Assembly: GCA_016935695.1 (NCBI GenBank)
Contig: JAFGQL010000087.1
Span: forward strand, 1-64,000
Length of the DNA: 64,000 nucleotides
Source of the DNA: Spirochaetales bacterium
GTDB taxonomy: Bacteria; Spirochaetota; Spirochaetia; JC444; Marispirochaetaceae
Reading direction: 5' to 3'
Below are positions 35,082 to 57,582 of this stretch, one piece after another. A program made the position numbers and the translations under genes. The stretch's first letter is position 1. Each line of letters begins with the position of its first letter. The notes beneath the pieces were generated by a model. That model was not told the origin of the DNA, made no database searches, and saw nothing but the letters and a program-made list of their open reading frames with translations.

Positions 35082-35100
35082 TTAACGTATGATTTCCATG

Positions 35101-35132
35101 AAAACCGCCTCAGTAAAAAGGCGGTTTTTTTT
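35101..35132 (+). terminator. Strong terminator of the S10-spc-alpha series
   Basis: 10-bp stem AAAACCGCCT/AGGCGGTTTT with an eight-base loop CAGTAAAA, followed by more T (eight in total from 35125). It is a textbook intrinsic terminator 20 bases after the rplQ stop. Confidence 0.92.
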
Positions 35133-35216: not shown

Positions 35217-38200
35217 GTGAAAGGTTCCCATAGGATCGCCATAAGTCTTCTGGTATCAATTGTTCTCTCCAGCCTAATTGCGGTGTCCGCATACGGGGGA
35301 CTGTTCCGTCTTGTCGATACAAAATTTTACAGCACACGCATGTACAGATTTTATCAGACTCAAGGAGAAAAAATCTCAGAAAGTATAGATAGTCTCCATG
35401 AAAGGAATATAATTAAGTTTACCACTATCCTCAAAGAAACCCAGATATGGCGGAATTATGTAGCAAATCAAAGTCTGGAAGTAATAAGGGAATCCAGAAG
35501 AACCGTACAACTGCTCAATCAGGAATCTGAAAACCTTATTGGTATTCGCCTTATAGATGTAGAAGGTGGCATTCACTTTTCTTCTTTTATCAGTGATAGA
35601 AGAACCGCAAATGATTTTCAAATCATTTATGATGATTTTGACAACGTACAAACAGAATTGACTGTCTCCGATGTAAAAAATGGGAGGCAGGTTTTTCTGT
35701 TGAACGCCCTGGGTTCCGGCTATGTAGTTTATCCAATTGAAATCAAGGATACAGCCAATATTTCAAGAGGATTTGCATTAGTTTATATCGGTAGTGTCGG
35801 CTTTGTTTCCGAGATGCTGGAAGCCGGCAATATTGATATGGGTACTACTGTACACGTTATCTCCCAAAAAGGACTCCTAATTTATAAAAGTATGTACTCT
35901 GACAAAAATCTTCTGTCAATAATTTCGGATAGCTGGGCAGAAGGGCCTGCCGGTGCTGCTTCATTTGCAGTGGAAAAGGAGGATGGTACTGTTTTTCAGT
36001 TATTTCAAGTACCGTCAAAGTACGGTTATACCGTCGGGATGCTTGTACCGGAAACAAGTTTTCGATTAAGCGCATCCATGAAATTACTGCTTGTAGTTTC
36101 CTTATGTGTCTCTGTTTTTTTGTTTGTGTTTCTCATAATAAATCTGAAACAGGATGATGCGGTAGTTTTTGAGGCAAGGTTAAAGCATTTTCATGAGTCA
36201 ATATTTATTGAATATCTTGAGAATCAGCGTAGCATACCTTTGGATAAATGGTTCCGTGAACTGGATGCACGAAAAGATCAGATTAAGAATAATCTGTTAA
36301 GCTCGATTGCCAGGAAACAACGGCCGGAATTTGAAAAACAGTTTGACATTTCCTGGTCCCAATTGGTTGAAAGTTTCCAGGACCAAACCAGTAACATACC
36401 TTTACCTGACGCAAGCAAACTTGAGGCGCTCCTTAATAAGGTGCTTCACAATCAATTACAAAATGCACCAATCAGAATACAGACGACCCATGAAGAAACG
36501 TCAAATACCATGAAAACAAATACATCTTCCGTTTCTCCTCAATCTTTAGGTTCGCAGAAACTGTCTCAGATCATGAAAAAGTCTGAAGAATCAATCGGGA
36601 TGGATACGGTTGGGGAAATTGAAGAAGTAGAAGAAATTGAAGATGCTGAAGAAATTGAAGAAATGGAAGAGGTTACGGCTGCCGAAGAAATCGAGGAAAT
36701 AGAAGAGGTTGAAGCCGCCGAAGAAATAGAGGAAATAGAAGAGGCAGAAACCGTCGGGGAAATTAAAGAAGCAGAAGAGATTGAAGATGCTGAAGAAATC
36801 GAGGAAATGGAAGAGGTTGAGGCCGCCGAAGAAATTGAGGAAATTGAAGAGGCGGAAACCGTCGGGGAAATTGAAGCAGCAGAAGAGATTGAAGATGCTG
36901 AAGAAATCGAGGAATTTGAAGAGGTTGAGACCGCTAAAGAAATAGAGGAAATAGAAGAGGCGGAAACACTCGGAGAATTAGACGAAATAGATGAGGTTGA
37001 AAATGTTGATGTGCCCGTTTCAGCATCGCGAAGGAAAGGGGTTCGCAATAACCGGGATATCCCTGTCCTTGAATATCAGGAACCTGAATATGAACTGGTG
37101 CGGATAGATTTAGAGGGCCGGCAGCAGGAGGCTCCCGTTATTTCAGCCATTGGTTATTCCATGATGAACCCGGAAACCATAATTGATGATGATGAGGTAC
37201 TTGATCTTACTGCCCTGTTCAGTGGAGAAGATGATCTCGGGAATATAGAAGTATTTGAAGACTCCGTTGATGATGTTGATATTGTAACGGAAATCATGGA
37301 TGAGGTTGACGGGAAAGAAATTTATGATGAAGGTGAAGAAATCGAGTTATTGCTGTGTGCCGATGATGTAGAGGGTATTAATCAGCAGCCGGAAAACAAG
37401 GAGATTTCTATTATACCGCTGCCAGAGCTTCCTCAGGAAGAACTCGAAGAAATACAAAATATACAAGAGTCCGAGTCGGAAATAGTCGGCGCTCTGCCGG
37501 TCCAGGAAATCGGAAAAAGTGAAATATATAACCCTCAACCAAGAGACTTTTGTTATGGCCTACGGGGGATCGATCAGCGGGACGGGGGATTCGATGATGC
37601 TTTTGAGTCCCGAAATTTCTTTGCAAAGCTTGATGAGCTTGTTGCGACTTTCAACGCCCATGAAAATTGTGAGATATATCATTTATCGGAAGTGATCATA
37701 AACGAAGATCGAAAAAGAATTAATCAAAAATTACAGTCAATGCAGAAGCATAAACTTCCGCAGGATCTTGATTATGAAATATCTGAACTTGTTGAAACAA
37801 TTTTACCGCATCCTGTGGATGAAGACCTCTCTATTGACAGCCTATTATCTAAAAAATCCGTGGATCTTACCGCTGGGCTTGAAGATGAAGACAGCCTCGA
37901 TGCTGACGAAACAGATGATGTTTTTGTTTCGGTTGAACGCAATTATCTTAAAATGCGTGGATTCGATTTCGATGCATATTCTGCCAGCTTCCGTCAAGGG
38001 AGCATGGGTACTATAAAAGGTCTTATGCGCCTGTCCTCGAAGTTTAATGCGTTTTACGCGGCACTCTTGAAATTTACCGACACGGGTTTGCGCGTGACCC
38101 AGTCTTTGGGCATGGACTCGTTAAGTATAAACCAGCTGCATATTGATGAGAACGAGGAAGGTATGAAACTTTTCAAAAATAATCTTATCGTGTATCTGAG

Positions 38201-38381
38201 GTCCGGGAAGGTAGGGATACCGTTCTTTGATTCGAAGATGGTAGGCAGAGACCGTTCTTATTTACAGGGATCCATCTATTTCCCTGTTATTTTCAATAAT
38301 GTGCCGGCATATCTTTATCTTGGTCTGAAAAATTCACGCTTGGGAATAGAAGATTGGATGTCAATATTGAGTAATGCGTAA
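35217..38381 (+). CDS. Large membrane protein with periplasmic sensor-like domain and Glu-rich repeats
   Basis: 1054 residues, family not recognised. Residues 6-28 and about 289-311 are transmembrane helices. The 260 residues between them would be periplasmic, with a Cache-like pattern (inference). Residues 312-450 are a cytoplasmic helical segment. Residues about 463-598 are a tandem repeat of nearly pure Glu/Ile/Ala, with a 36-residue unit. A second acidic region follows to about 760. The C-terminal 150 residues (starting MRGFDFDAYSASFRQG) look like a folded domain of unknown type. No kinase, HAMP or methyl-accepting output domain is visible. The GTG start has only a weak binding site. It lies alone between the ribosomal operon terminator and the rny promoter. 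Confidence 0.8.
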   Translation: MKGSHRIAISLLVSIVLSSLIAVSAYGGLFRLVDTKFYSTRMYRFYQTQGEKISESIDSLHERNIIKFTTILKETQIWRNYVANQSLEVIRESRRTVQLLNQESENLIGIRLIDVEGGIHFSSFISDRRTANDFQIIYDDFDNVQTELTVSDVKNGRQVFLLNALGSGYVVYPIEIKDTANISRGFALVYIGSVGFVSEMLEAGNIDMGTTVHVISQKGLLIYKSMYSDKNLLSIISDSWAEGPAGAASFAVEKEDGTVFQLFQVPSKYGYTVGMLVPETSFRLSASMKLLLVVSLCVSVFLFVFLIINLKQDDAVVFEARLKHFHESIFIEYLENQRSIPLDKWFRELDARKDQIKNNLLSSIARKQRPEFEKQFDISWSQLVESFQDQTSNIPLPDASKLEALLNKVLHNQLQNAPIRIQTTHEETSNTMKTNTSSVSPQSLGSQKLSQIMKKSEESIGMDTVGEIEEVEEIEDAEEIEEMEEVTAAEEIEEIEEVEAAEEIEEIEEAETVGEIKEAEEIEDAEEIEEMEEVEAAEEIEEIEEAETVGEIEAAEEIEDAEEIEEFEEVETAKEIEEIEEAETLGELDEIDEVENVDVPVSASRRKGVRNNRDIPVLEYQEPEYELVRIDLEGRQQEAPVISAIGYSMMNPETIIDDDEVLDLTALFSGEDDLGNIEVFEDSVDDVDIVTEIMDEVDGKEIYDEGEEIELLLCADDVEGINQQPENKEISIIPLPELPQEELEEIQNIQESESEIVGALPVQEIGKSEIYNPQPRDFCYGLRGIDQRDGGFDDAFESRNFFAKLDELVATFNAHENCEIYHLSEVIINEDRKRINQKLQSMQKHKLPQDLDYEISELVETILPHPVDEDLSIDSLLSKKSVDLTAGLEDEDSLDADETDDVFVSVERNYLKMRGFDFDAYSASFRQGSMGTIKGLMRLSSKFNAFYAALLKFTDTGLRVTQSLGMDSLSINQLHIDENEEGMKLFKNNLIVYLRSGKVGIPFFDSKMVGRDRSYLQGSIYFPVIFNNVPAYLYLGLKNSRLGIEDWMSILSNA
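36603..37010 (+). repeat. Tandem repeat encoding Glu/Ile-rich units
   Basis: About three and a half copies of a roughly 108-base unit (36 codons). It begins near ETVGEI, passes through EEIEDAEEIEEMEEVEAA, and ends EEIEEIEEA. The first copy carries an extra 12 codons. Third-codon and small amino-acid differences separate the copies, so the repeat is diverged rather than freshly duplicated. Confidence 0.8.
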
Positions 38382-38426: not shown

Positions 38427-38454
38427 TTGACAAATGCATATGTATATTTATAAT
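38427..38454 (+). promoter_or_regulatory. Consensus promoter of rny
   Basis: TTGACA at 38427-38432, a 16-base spacer and TATAAT at 38449-38454. Both boxes are perfect. Transcription would start about 22 bases before the rny ATG. Confidence 0.85.
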
Positions 38455-53796: not shown

Positions 53797-56700
53797 ATGA
53801 ATTTTGATTTTGGTGATCTCTTAACCTTAATCATTGTGTTTGTCATACTGGTGATTTATCGCCAGCTTGATCTGAACAATCGATCATTGGAAAAGGTTAA
53901 AAAGTTTTCTGATAAAATGAAAGAGGAACTGGCCGGGTATGTGGATACCAAAGCCCAGGATCTGAAAAATCTTTCTATCGAGGTGGACGTTCATCAGAAG
54001 GCCGCCAAGGAAGTTCTCAAACGGATAACCGTGATAGAGTCAGGTCTTCAGGATAAGTCCTCGGACATAGAGCATATTTTTACCCGTATTACAAGCTATG
54101 ACAAAGCCCTGGACGAGCTGGTGAAAATGACCGGCAGGGTAGAGGAAAATCTGGGAAGGCTCCACAAGGAATCGGAATTCGTAGATAAAGTGGGTAAAAA
54201 AGTAGGCGAGGTTTCAGGTTCCCTCAAGCGCCTTGAGTCCGATCTCGGGACCATCCGCCAGGATTTTCAGAAACACAACCTCAAAGCCCTGGATCTTGTC
54301 CGTAAGGAACTTTTGAAAAAGACCCAGAGCGATATTATCAAATCCCAGGAACGGATGGGGGTCATAAAAACCCAGGTGGAAGAGTTTTCCGAGTTTATCG
54401 GTGATCTGACAGCCAGGAAGGATGATGTTGAGCGGGATTTGACCGCGGCAATAGAACAGATGAACCGCGACGCGGTGAAAGAGATCGACGCTTCGGCCAA
54501 CAGGATCAACGATGAGCTGATGGATGTCTGGCAAAGCCAGCAGAAGCAGTTTTTCGACGCCATCGAAAGCAAAGTGAAGGAAGGTTTTGAACGCGGCGGC
54601 CAGCTGCAGTCCGGTTTCAACACTCTCATTACCGAGACCAAACAGGCTCTTGGTTCTTACGAGGACAAAATTAAAAACTCCAAATCCGTGTTAGAGGCCA
54701 ACGGCAAAGAGGTTCTCGCTGCGGTGAAAAAACAGCTCATTGTCATCCAGAGCGAAGGCGAATCCTCCATTGGAAAGATGTCCGGTGATTTCGCTGCACG
54801 GCTGGAGGCACTGCGTGCCGCAGAAGACCAGAAGGGAAGCGATGTCATTTCTCACCTCAAGGTTCTTCATAATGAATTGAAGCAGGCGGTAGAGGATACC
54901 GACTCGACCATCTCCCAGCGTCTGGAAGAATTCCAGGACCAGGCCGGACGGATTGAGCATGCCTACGAAGAACATCTAAAGACCGTAGCCGAGCGTGGAA
55001 AGAATTTCGAGGATGACATTTTCGCGAAACTGCGTGAGCACATAGAAAAGAAGGCAGCAGAAACCGAAAAATCCTTGTTAGGCGCGATCGGGGAAGTGCG
55101 GGCCAATATAGAAGAAAAGAAACGGGAGTTTATTGCTTTTTTTGGTGATTCCCGTTCGGAAATCGCTGTGTGGCGTACCGAAGTGCAGAAGCAGCTTGAC
55201 GACACTCTGAGCGAATATGAAAGTCTTTCCGGCCGTATGAAAACCCATATCGGCCAGGCTATCGATGCCCTTACCGGCAGGACCGATGCGATGATCGAAG
55301 AGCAGGACAAAAAGTACAGAGGCCTTGCAGCTGGTCTTGACGCCGCGGCTAAAAGCTTTAATGAACAGATCCAGAGGCAGTCGGCGGGTTTTGCCGACAC
55401 GGTACAGGAGCGCTTTACCGAAATGGACAGCCGCATCAGCGATTACGAGGAGAGCGTATCCTATAAATTTTCCAAAATAGAAGAAATAGGAAGTGATATA
55501 GACGGCCTTGAGCATAATCTGCGCGCGAGCATGGACCGAATTTCCGATAAAATCCGCAGCGAGTTCCGCGAGTTTCATGAGGCTTTGTCCTCTGAACGCG
55601 CTCAGGAACAGGCAAAGGCCCGGGACGACTTGGGCACCATTCACCAGGCGGTGTCCCAGATAGAGGGTGAGCTTAATGAGCTTAAACAGCGGGCTTACGA
55701 CAGTGTTTCCGAAAAACTCCAGGTTTTTGAGGATGAATTTTTTGAGGATCTCCGCAACAGAGGGCAGGTCCTCAGTTCCGAATTGAAACAATGGAAGGAT
55801 TCTCTTGACCAGCGTATGGAAGACTACGCCCAGGGTTACGAAAAGCAGCAGAAGGAAATGGAAGCGCGGCAGGCAATGGACATGGAGGCACGGCTTGAGT
55901 CCTTGAGGGATCTTTTTAACGAACGGCTTGCCGGGTTTGAAGAAAACCTTTCTGTGTTTGATGCTTCCATGAAGAACCGGATGGAAGAAAGCAATCTGGG
56001 CATCAGGGATCTGGAGTCGCGGATGCACAAGGAAGTGGCGGGGTTCCAATCACGGTCGGCGAAGCTCTTTGATGAGAAAATTCAGGCTTCGGCTGCCGAC
56101 ATGGAAGAGGCCCTTTCTGCCTATCGGCAGCAGATTGAGACCCGGATGGCAGGGGTGAAGGATTACCTGGCGTCAAGCAGCAAGGAAACCGAGGGTATTA
56201 TCGATTCTGTGAGGGCCGGTGTGACCCAGTGGCAGTCCCAGGTCCTTTCGAACATGAAGGAAACGGATAACAGCGTGAAAGAACGCATTGCAGATCTGCG
56301 GGGTTCCATGACCGAAGCGACATCGGCCATTAAGGAAGAGTTTATTTCCCAGCGGGAGGACCTGATCCTTAATTCCCAGGAAGAACGCAGCCGTTTAAAG
56401 AATGAACTCAAGGATATCAGTGAAACGATTCTCGCTCTTCAGGAGGATTTGCGGAGGCGAAGCGACGAAGCTCTTCTTACCTTTTCCAAGGAGTCGGAAA
56501 CCTCTCTGCTTGAATATCAGAAAAAAGCCCGGGAACTGCAAATGGACATGGAAGTCCGAACCAAGGACTTCCGTACCGCTGTTTCCGACATCCGTGAGAA
56601 GCTCGAAACAGCCCAGTCCCGGCTCCTGGGTAAAGTGGAGGATGAGGCCAAGGCCCTTGAAGTCACCCTTGTGGAGATTGACAAGAAACAGAAGGCCTTC

Positions 56701-57582
56701 ATCAGCCAGACCAGGGTTTTCGAGAAGGCCGATCAGCTTAAGGAATCGTTGAGCAAGAGCATAGAAGACCTCAAATCGGAAATCAGCCGCATAGCCCAAA
56801 TGTCAAAGGATGTACGGGAATCGGAAAAGGAATTCTCAACAGTGCTGAAGCTCGCGGAATCCGCCAATACCAAAATGGCCCGCTTCCTTGGGGAAAAACG
56901 GCGTATAGATTCCATGGATGAGGACTTTGCCAAGCTCCTCAATCTGTCCCAGACCATAGACACAAAAATTGCCCAGATGACCCAGACCCATGATACCCTC
57001 CAGCACATTCAGGCTGATCTTATGCGCCTGGGTGAACTCGAGGAGAGCGTCGAGGCCCGTTACAAGCGTCTTGAATCCAAAGAAGGCCTTCTAGAACGTA
57101 CCACCGAAGGTGTGGACAAGAATTTTTCTGTTATCAGCGATATGACCAAGGCCCTAAAGGGAGTCAGGGAGGAGATGTCGCGGATACCCGCCGAGCTTTC
57201 CCAGCTCGATCAGCGGGTGTCTTTGCTTGCCGAAAACAAGGACCAGGCAGAAGCCACCATCACAAAGCTGTCAGGTCTCGACGGGGTTTTGTCGGAAATT
57301 GAGACCCGTATAGAAGCAATGCAGGAAGCGCGGCAGTGGCTTGCAAGAACCGAGACCCGTCTGGAGGACGTTGCCCGACAGGCCCAGGAGCAGGTTAAGC
57401 TTCTTGGTTCCATCATGAAGGAGGGGGCAAAACGGGCAAAGGGTAAGGAAAAACTCGATACCAGAGATGTTGTTATACGTCTTGCCAGGGAAGGCTGGGC
57501 AGTAGAGGAGATCGCCCGTACTACCCAGTTGAGCAGGTCGGAGGTGGAACTGATTCTTGAGCTGGTGGCAAAAAAAAGCTGA
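53797..57582 (+). CDS. SpiroCoCo-type giant coiled-coil protein
   Basis: 1261 residues. One N-terminal membrane helix (about 7-24, LLTLIIVFVILVIYR) is followed by some 1100 residues of near-continuous coiled coil rich in Glu, Lys, Ala and Arg. The last 45 residues (DTRDVVIRLAREGWAVEEIARTTQ and following) are a small helix-turn-helix-like module of the kind found in several Gram-positive and spirochaete proteins. Matches the SpiroCoCo family by overall layout (my recollection of the family). It is probably a membrane-tethered cytoskeletal or cell-envelope spacer protein. The small C-terminal module may bind DNA or a protein partner. Preceded by a GGGAGAGG site. Confidence 0.85.
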   Translation: MNFDFGDLLTLIIVFVILVIYRQLDLNNRSLEKVKKFSDKMKEELAGYVDTKAQDLKNLSIEVDVHQKAAKEVLKRITVIESGLQDKSSDIEHIFTRITSYDKALDELVKMTGRVEENLGRLHKESEFVDKVGKKVGEVSGSLKRLESDLGTIRQDFQKHNLKALDLVRKELLKKTQSDIIKSQERMGVIKTQVEEFSEFIGDLTARKDDVERDLTAAIEQMNRDAVKEIDASANRINDELMDVWQSQQKQFFDAIESKVKEGFERGGQLQSGFNTLITETKQALGSYEDKIKNSKSVLEANGKEVLAAVKKQLIVIQSEGESSIGKMSGDFAARLEALRAAEDQKGSDVISHLKVLHNELKQAVEDTDSTISQRLEEFQDQAGRIEHAYEEHLKTVAERGKNFEDDIFAKLREHIEKKAAETEKSLLGAIGEVRANIEEKKREFIAFFGDSRSEIAVWRTEVQKQLDDTLSEYESLSGRMKTHIGQAIDALTGRTDAMIEEQDKKYRGLAAGLDAAAKSFNEQIQRQSAGFADTVQERFTEMDSRISDYEESVSYKFSKIEEIGSDIDGLEHNLRASMDRISDKIRSEFREFHEALSSERAQEQAKARDDLGTIHQAVSQIEGELNELKQRAYDSVSEKLQVFEDEFFEDLRNRGQVLSSELKQWKDSLDQRMEDYAQGYEKQQKEMEARQAMDMEARLESLRDLFNERLAGFEENLSVFDASMKNRMEESNLGIRDLESRMHKEVAGFQSRSAKLFDEKIQASAADMEEALSAYRQQIETRMAGVKDYLASSSKETEGIIDSVRAGVTQWQSQVLSNMKETDNSVKERIADLRGSMTEATSAIKEEFISQREDLILNSQEERSRLKNELKDISETILALQEDLRRRSDEALLTFSKESETSLLEYQKKARELQMDMEVRTKDFRTAVSDIREKLETAQSRLLGKVEDEAKALEVTLVEIDKKQKAFISQTRVFEKADQLKESLSKSIEDLKSEISRIAQMSKDVRESEKEFSTVLKLAESANTKMARFLGEKRRIDSMDEDFAKLLNLSQTIDTKIAQMTQTHDTLQHIQADLMRLGELEESVEARYKRLESKEGLLERTTEGVDKNFSVISDMTKALKGVREEMSRIPAELSQLDQRVSLLAENKDQAEATITKLSGLDGVLSEIETRIEAMQEARQWLARTETRLEDVARQAQEQVKLLGSIMKEGAKRAKGKEKLDTRDVVIRLAREGWAVEEIARTTQLSRSEVELILELVAKKS

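Follow-up and report, generated by a model that had tools for sequence, protein, structure and literature searches.

What does a large membrane protein do that stands alone among its neighbours, carries a strongly acidic repeat and ends without any recognizable output domain? The question is raised by a gene on contig JAFGQL010000087.1 of the Spirochaetales bacterium assembly GCA_016935695.1, of which we analysed positions 1 to 64,000 of the forward strand (hereafter, the window). We confirmed that its open reading frame (ORF), which starts with GTG and encodes 1054 residues, is uninterrupted, and Tandem Repeats Finder recovered the repeat within it, so both elements named in the preliminary description of this DNA are real. 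The protein, a member of an unnamed and apparently undescribed family common to many spirochaetes, has a new architecture, in which a known kind of sensor is combined with an unusual arm. A three-residue unit in the arm, a GAF-like fold, a conserved helical module and a tail motif are the points that go beyond the preliminary description. The full reading that we propose, a sensor outside the cell and a long acidic arm inside it, on which the tail and the GAF-like domain are displayed to a cytosolic partner, has in our judgement about an even chance of being correct. The architecture is drawn from models and conservation; ligand, partner and function are inferred.

The region between the two transmembrane helices had been suspected to be a periplasmic sensor, and structure prediction bore this out. 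The AlphaFold2 model of residues 1-446 (mean predicted local distance difference test score, pLDDT, 81.4) consists of a long helix, a two-lobed sensor, the second transmembrane helix and further helices, and residues 29-288 are predicted to form two PAS-like lobes behind the long helix, as is characteristic of dCache domains. A Foldseek search with the sensor model returned 21 PDB chains at E-values of 1e-3 or below, mostly dCache sensors, and VIA-align gave Z scores of about 11-13 for residues 29-288. At E<=0.1, three of the 27 members compared matched the Pfam family dCache_1 (best E-value 9.1e-5); the window protein was not among them. We describe residues 29-288 as a predicted dCache sensor.

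Basic residues flank the membrane helices (K and R ahead of the first, KQDD...R behind the second), and a cytoplasmic location of everything behind the second helix would be consistent with them. Among the soluble parts of the protein, the helices that follow (residues 313-391) show the strongest conservation, above that of the sensor: in an alignment of 27 N-terminal parts of family members (A1), their mean BLOSUM score was 1.74, whereas three sensor segments scored 0.97, 0.89 and 0.26, and W380 was invariant in all 27 rows.

The family was traced by several routes. Of 60 relatives searched with the protein, 37 gave matches, the window's own genome among them, with one match to the sensor part per genome, and a profile of the 27 N-terminal parts matched 48 of 247 genomes across the phylum, some weakly and some outside the class. 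A ten-residue pattern, scanned against a collection of 84,980 species, gave 35 stretches, of which 32 are relatives of the family, all under spirochaete record titles; the family is thus likely, though not proven, to be confined to spirochaetes, since this pattern is a narrow one. The full-length window protein matched no Pfam or NCBIfam family, and PDB sequence searches with the single sequence and with a profile gave no result. When the 27 members were compared with NCBIfam, the single match (one member, E-value 0.0093) was not credible, and a Pfam search of five further members revealed no credible family. Neither Pfam and NCBIfam nor the literature searched, which covered few terms, contained a description of the family.

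The statement that the protein has no output domain holds for catalytic domains: over its whole length, Pfam and NCBIfam indicated no HAMP domain or MCP signalling hairpin and no HisKA or HATPase domain, and none of the 13 families matched by any of the 27 members at E<=0.1 was a HAMP, MCP-signal or kinase family.

The cytoplasmic part behind the helical module is dominated by the acidic array. Five overlapping rows were reported by Tandem Repeats Finder in 36615-37009. Their periods are 9, 27, 36 and 108 bases, and the row of 36 bases covers 36615-37001. The 36-residue repeat proposed earlier is real and corresponds to the 108-base period, but it is not the elementary unit, which is Glu-Glu-hydrophobic and three residues long. 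The hydrophobic residues of the window array peaked at a period of 3.00, exceeding all 1000 shuffles. We examined 75 family ORFs or pieces of them, one short piece (the first ORF of locus L032) being dropped, and a Glu-rich stretch 40 residues long or longer occurred in 60 of the remaining 74, counting two pieces of one gene (L038) separately. The signal at period 3.0 lay above all 1000 shuffles in 48 of these 60 stretches, the maximum fell within 2.9-3.1 in 53, and power at 3.0 was higher than at helical periods in 54; in an earlier count per segment, 29 of 37 had exceeded every one of 300 shuffles. The stretches that keep the phase are 41 to 308 residues long.

For control, 711 ORFs filtered as non-family (799,716 bases) were examined and contained 72 Glu-rich stretches, between 30 and 81 residues long. 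Their one strong period-3 signal (L056, power 2.9) came from the family's own member in genome G020, which the filter had missed, and three weak ones (1.2-1.5) came from one neighbouring gene in three genomes. A second family ORF left in the control, the second piece of L154, had no period 3. Since the control stretches were short and picked at 30% Glu, this control is weaker than the test on the family. A strict pattern of four triplets, (D/E-E-h)4, occurred in 17 of the 60 genomes, at the family gene in 16 of those, and the reversed control gave none. Outside the family gene such runs are rare. Those inspected, with two places on contig C35 of G045 left out, were assigned by eye to a short ORF (G054), the linker of a hybrid histidine kinase (G025) and a different small membrane protein (G055), at loci L106, L107 and L121, and to a linker of an FtsK-like protein of one relative (L108, G045:C4), which has an (Asp-Glu-Val)n array of the same three-residue style.

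A period of 3.0 together with 3% Lys and Arg makes the window array neither a standard coiled coil nor a salt-bridged helix. A coiled coil was rejected because the power was 12.0 at 3.0 and at most 0.3 at 3.5-3.67, and a salt-bridged single alpha-helix of the ER/K type because the fraction of Lys and Arg was 0.03 and that of Glu 0.47. For comparison, a 1261-residue ORF elsewhere in the window (53797-57582), presumably a giant coiled-coil protein, has helical periodicity peaks at 3.64, the leading one, and 3.45; it lies upstream of grpE-dnaK-dnaJ-like ORFs. The charge of the region is extreme: residues 453-598 include 69 Glu in 146 and have a net charge of -72, and the window protein past residue 391 reaches -123. 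Behind the helical module, the net charge of the cytoplasmic tail could be determined for 32 of 49 members or pieces, four of these 32 being truncated by contig ends; it ranged from -34 to -226 (median -101).

The codons tell something of the age of the units. Identity of Glu codons at a lag of three residues averaged 0.60 compared with 0.58 after shuffling; of 57 stretches, 12 exceeded their shuffles and six fell below them. In the window array this identity was 0.53 at lag 3, where 0.61 was expected, and 0.91 at lag 36. Longer repeat units often agree well in their codons. With lag-3 codons near chance and long units in agreement, the triplet is older than the long units in most arrays, and recent slippage by 9 bases was rejected as the sole source of the phase, the 12 stretches with an excess notwithstanding. 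Of the 57 stretches, 50 repeat best at a lag divisible by three residues, a pattern for which selection on the phase or in-register recombination could each account.

The copy number of the repeat is variable, as had been anticipated, although the comparison was made between relatives and not between strains of one species. Two close pairs, with 95.0% and 96.5% identity over their first 400 residues, have arrays of 125 and 89 residues (a difference of 36) and of 218 and 155 residues (a difference of 63), respectively. The longest stretches were equal in two more distant pairs (217 and 218 residues at 82.75% identity, 80 and 80 at 62.5%) and were 217 and 155 in a fifth pair, 84.5% identical. 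Since length differs between close relatives while composition and three-residue phase stay, a fixed-length ruler, which had been suggested for the repeat, is unlikely, even with equal lengths in two of the five pairs. The other earlier suggestion, a charged brush, or else a tether, is possible and forms part of the reading proposed here. Draft contigs end in or beside the array in nine of 30 loci (L003, L008, L010, L016, L017, L018, L020, L021 and L029), and short-read assemblies thus probably break there, which makes draft array lengths unsafe.

What, then, maintains the phase? One proposal is neutral low-complexity drift, with the array as an acidic linker that changes its length by slippage or recombination and merely joins two domains. 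The length differences between close pairs would be expected from it, as would the lack of a Glu-rich stretch of 40 in 14 of the 74 ORFs or pieces; it could also draw on the 12 stretches with excess lag-3 codon identity, and the lags in multiples of three are what in-register recombination would give. It does not readily explain why the same phase occurs in deeply separated members, including L153, L165 and L166 from outside the class, with lag-3 codons near chance, nor why the strict pattern falls so predominantly on the family gene, in 16 of 17 genomes, with no hit in the reversed control. We consider drift unlikely, yet a serious candidate. We put forward, as tentatively, that the arm may be a new kind of selected low-complexity sequence, an acidic polymer whose exact three-residue amphipathic phase has persisted between deeply diverged spirochaetes despite turnover of its sequence and length; extension dependent on ions or pH, or assembly along one hydrophobic edge, would tune the display of a conserved docking motif by the dCache receptor to a partner shared by spirochaetes, the syphilis bacterium included.

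The array could instead be an ordered rod with three residues per turn, of the polyproline-II or 3-10 type, with a single hydrophobic edge used for bundling or for binding of membrane or metal. At 3.0 residues per turn the geometry would place all hydrophobic residues on one side, and a phase held over as many as 308 residues would suit such a rod. At neutral pH, though, disorder is the normal state of poly-Glu, some arrays (for instance L046, L055, L159 and L163) lose the phase or slip out of it, the literature searched offered nothing relevant, and we know of no example of an ordered acidic three-residue rod, so that we judge this explanation rather improbable.

Returning to the proposed architecture, with an arm that presents a tail and a GAF-like domain, we turn to what stands at the end of the arm. 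Between the array and the GAF-like domain of the family lies the tail motif DGVFxI...DFKxLVDSVL (more generally DGxFxI...FKxLVDSVL). A strict pattern picked 19 members, whose alignment was used to build a motif profile, A4; this profile had one match each in 28 of the 60 genomes, and 25 of these 28 matches were at the family gene or at a contig piece bearing its second half. In the window protein, the motif is represented by a degenerate counterpart. Another short motif, DLxxLF...IxVFE, was matched in its narrow form by five of the 75 family ORFs or pieces, one of them a piece (L032).

The C-terminal domain, earlier described as folded but of unknown kind, is predicted to be folded, and its fold can be assigned as GAF-like from the model. 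The model of residues 804-1054 has a mean pLDDT of 81.4 overall and is good at its end. Foldseek returned 34 PDB chains at E<=1e-3, mostly of GAF domains and with five rows for T4 holin; the best VIA-align match had a Z of 9.5 (root mean square deviation 3.2 over 118 aligned residues), with non-GAF rows at similar Z; models without a clear match typically reach a best Z of 7-8. A GAF sequence profile matched none of 23 members in Pfam, nor the whole window protein in Pfam or NCBIfam, and we thus call the domain only GAF-like. Among members from other classes, a profile detected the GAF-like end in one (the second piece of L154, E-value 7.1e-11), and in the others it was recognized by eye.

Two groups of genes separate the tail motif from the parts around it. 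In a tree of 72 N-terminal parts, 22 members without the GAF-like end form one group (support 87/95). Two of these could not be read to their end; in all 20 that could, a stop codon follows the motif after 0 to 19 residues as judged by eye, some of the motifs being in weaker form. Mapped on the whole tree, the GAF label needs 12 changes, because the 36 rows with no profile match include 10 truncated at contig ends or at runs of N, as well as five diverged ones from outside the class; we used only the 22-row group, whose one row labelled as GAF (L164) stops at the motif. In the second case, a family in which no sensor part was found (f11), all three genomes have a protein of 262-281 residues with the motif and a GAF-like part directly between rplQ and rny. 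These proteins, encoded at L206:1520-2311, L207:916-1761 and L208:4316-5104, have neither sensor nor array. Between the GAF-less group and the sensor-less f11 proteins, the sensor and the GAF-like domain are thus each absent from some lineage in which the motif is present.

Taken together, these features suggest how the protein may work. A small molecule would bind the dCache domain, and the change that it induces would pass via the second transmembrane helix to the helical module, which may be the first output element. The arm, probably disordered for the most part and held extended and soluble by its charge, would be unable to carry a rigid conformational signal. It would rather act as a tether that displays the tail motif, and the GAF-like domain in those members that have one, to a cytosolic partner kept near the membrane. 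The protein contains no known enzyme and so probably acts by capturing a partner protein.

Several observations weigh against this picture. Twelve of the 60 arrays did not exceed all shuffles, the 14 ORFs or pieces lacking a Glu-rich stretch of 40 belong here too (several are truncated at contig ends or at runs of N), and in-register recombination could preserve a three-residue phase once it was present. In the window's own genome, the strict four-triplet pattern had no match, as the array often has Ala or Thr at the third place, and the motif profile A4 had none at E<=0.01; with the motif degenerate in the window, the docking proposal is weaker for this very protein. The strict tail-motif pattern matched only 19 of 49 members or pieces. 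The array is absent from the f11 proteins and almost absent from the probable gene of Treponema pallidum discussed below. The GAF-like assignment comes from a predicted fold to which no sequence profile corresponds, the tree support for the GAF-less group is moderate, and the arm, presumed to be disordered, lies outside the two models (residues 1-446 and 804-1054).

The neighbouring genes raise a further alternative, in which the protein would regulate translation or mRNA decay together with rplQ and rny. Among the first 29 loci, rplQ lies at most 700 nt upstream in 23 of the 28 with enough flank, and rny at most 700 nt downstream in 17 of 25; the f11 protein occupies the same slot in all three of its genomes. 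At 18 other loci, some with short flanks, which belong to the GAF-less group or come from outside the class, neither gene was found, which also led us to reject an exclusive tie of the family to rplQ and rny. Moreover, rplQ is followed directly by rny, with no gene between them, in seven of 17 fetched genomes without the family, and in the window a terminator and a promoter set the gene apart. We regard such a regulator as very improbable. That the protein is a degenerate chemoreceptor or histidine kinase which has lost its signalling domain is extremely improbable: dCache sensors are typical of both, and one of the 27 members weakly matched the sensor module 4HB_MCP_1 (E-value 0.048), but no HAMP, MCP-signal or kinase family was found for the whole protein in Pfam or NCBIfam or among the families matched by the 27 members, and the conservation of the helical module is a feature of its own.

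The features of the gene and its flanks are listed in Table 1. The stem-loop upstream and the promoter-like site downstream, which matches the consensus in 12 of 12 positions, are signs of a separate transcription unit, in agreement with the preliminary description of a lone gene between a terminator and the rny promoter. The terminator was absent from the output of the consensus scan, whose rules limit the loop to 8, and the scan found six promoter-like sites in the region compared with 7.7 in shuffles, i.e. no excess.

Table 1. Positions in the window of the receptor gene, its parts and its flanking signals.
Feature	Position	Strand	Evidence
Intrinsic terminator downstream of rplQ	35100..35132	+	Stem-loop -15.4 kcal/mol, z -3.86, U-tract behind
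Membrane receptor gene, 1054 aa, GTG start	35217..38381	+	ORF reading, homologues in relatives
Transmembrane helix 1, ~residues 8-28	35238..35300	+	Hydrophobic after basic N-terminus; conserved in A1; within modelled helix 3-74; limits by eye
Predicted periplasmic dCache sensor, ~residues 29-285	35301..36071	+	AlphaFold2 model, Foldseek, VIA-align
Transmembrane helix 2, ~residues 286-312	36072..36152	+	Alignment and model; limits from modelled helix
Membrane-proximal cytoplasmic helical module, ~residues 313-391	36153..36389	+	Model helices, W380, conservation
Acidic array, residues 467-595, (Glu-Glu-hydrophobic)n with higher-order 36-residue unit	36615..37001	+	Tandem Repeats Finder, periodicity tests
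Short motif DLxxLF...IxVFE, residues 663-681	37203..37259	+	Narrow regular expression
Degenerate counterpart of tail motif (EIYHL...ELVETIL), residues 819-863	37671..37805	+	Alignment
Predicted GAF-like domain, residues ~909-1054	37941..38378	+	Model, Foldseek, VIA-align; no Pfam match
Sigma-70-type promoter ahead of rny, TTGACA-16-TATAAT, 12/12 consensus positions	38427..38454	+	Consensus match only

Loci of the GAF-less group have other neighbours: what we take, from the first residues, to be an HflX-like GTPase near L156, L159 and L163, and an ECF-type sigma factor, named in the same way, near L156, L159 and L164. This group includes the member found in genome G111, which we take to be T. 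pallidum. Its ORF is listed with 677 residues (the start is uncertain), and a short way downstream of it, at 647,824-648,534, is a 236-residue ORF. In another T. pallidum strain, TP0594 is placed at 647,488-648,165 and given 225 residues in PMC3373638. The resemblance in position of the 236-residue neighbour to TP0594 suggests that the family gene of G111 is probably TP0593, which no paper in the literature searched mentions under any of five forms of its name.

Among known systems, the dCache receptors (Pfam dCache_1 / Cache; HK1S sensor domains, PctA/PctC, TlpC) share with the window protein the two-lobed periplasmic sensor, the long first helix and the two transmembrane helices, whereas the window protein has no HAMP, MCP, kinase, GGDEF or phosphatase output in Pfam or NCBIfam, and solved dCache domains are about 6-17% identical to its sensor. 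The predicted fold of residues ~909-1054 resembles GAF domains such as those of NreA, ptsP, fRMsr and Lcd1, but the family domain has no Pfam match in 23 members, ends a long acidic arm and is missing in one group. ER/K single alpha-helices and coiled-coil linkers are likewise long and Glu-rich, from which the array differs in its 3% Lys and Arg and its period of 3.0 in place of 3.5-3.6. The repeats of the treponemal proteins Arp (TP0433) and TP0470 vary in length too, and are of a different unit and charge pattern. Both are presented as spirochaete proteins with tandem repeats in PMC9531955; the likeness lies in such repeats, and no relationship is shown.

A widespread unnamed receptor family offers a way into environmental sensing by spirochaetes, including through a probable gene of T. 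pallidum, and the conserved tail motif is a concrete bait for the partner. The arm, with composition and phase kept while sequence and often length change, is a natural experiment on what is selected in a low-complexity protein.

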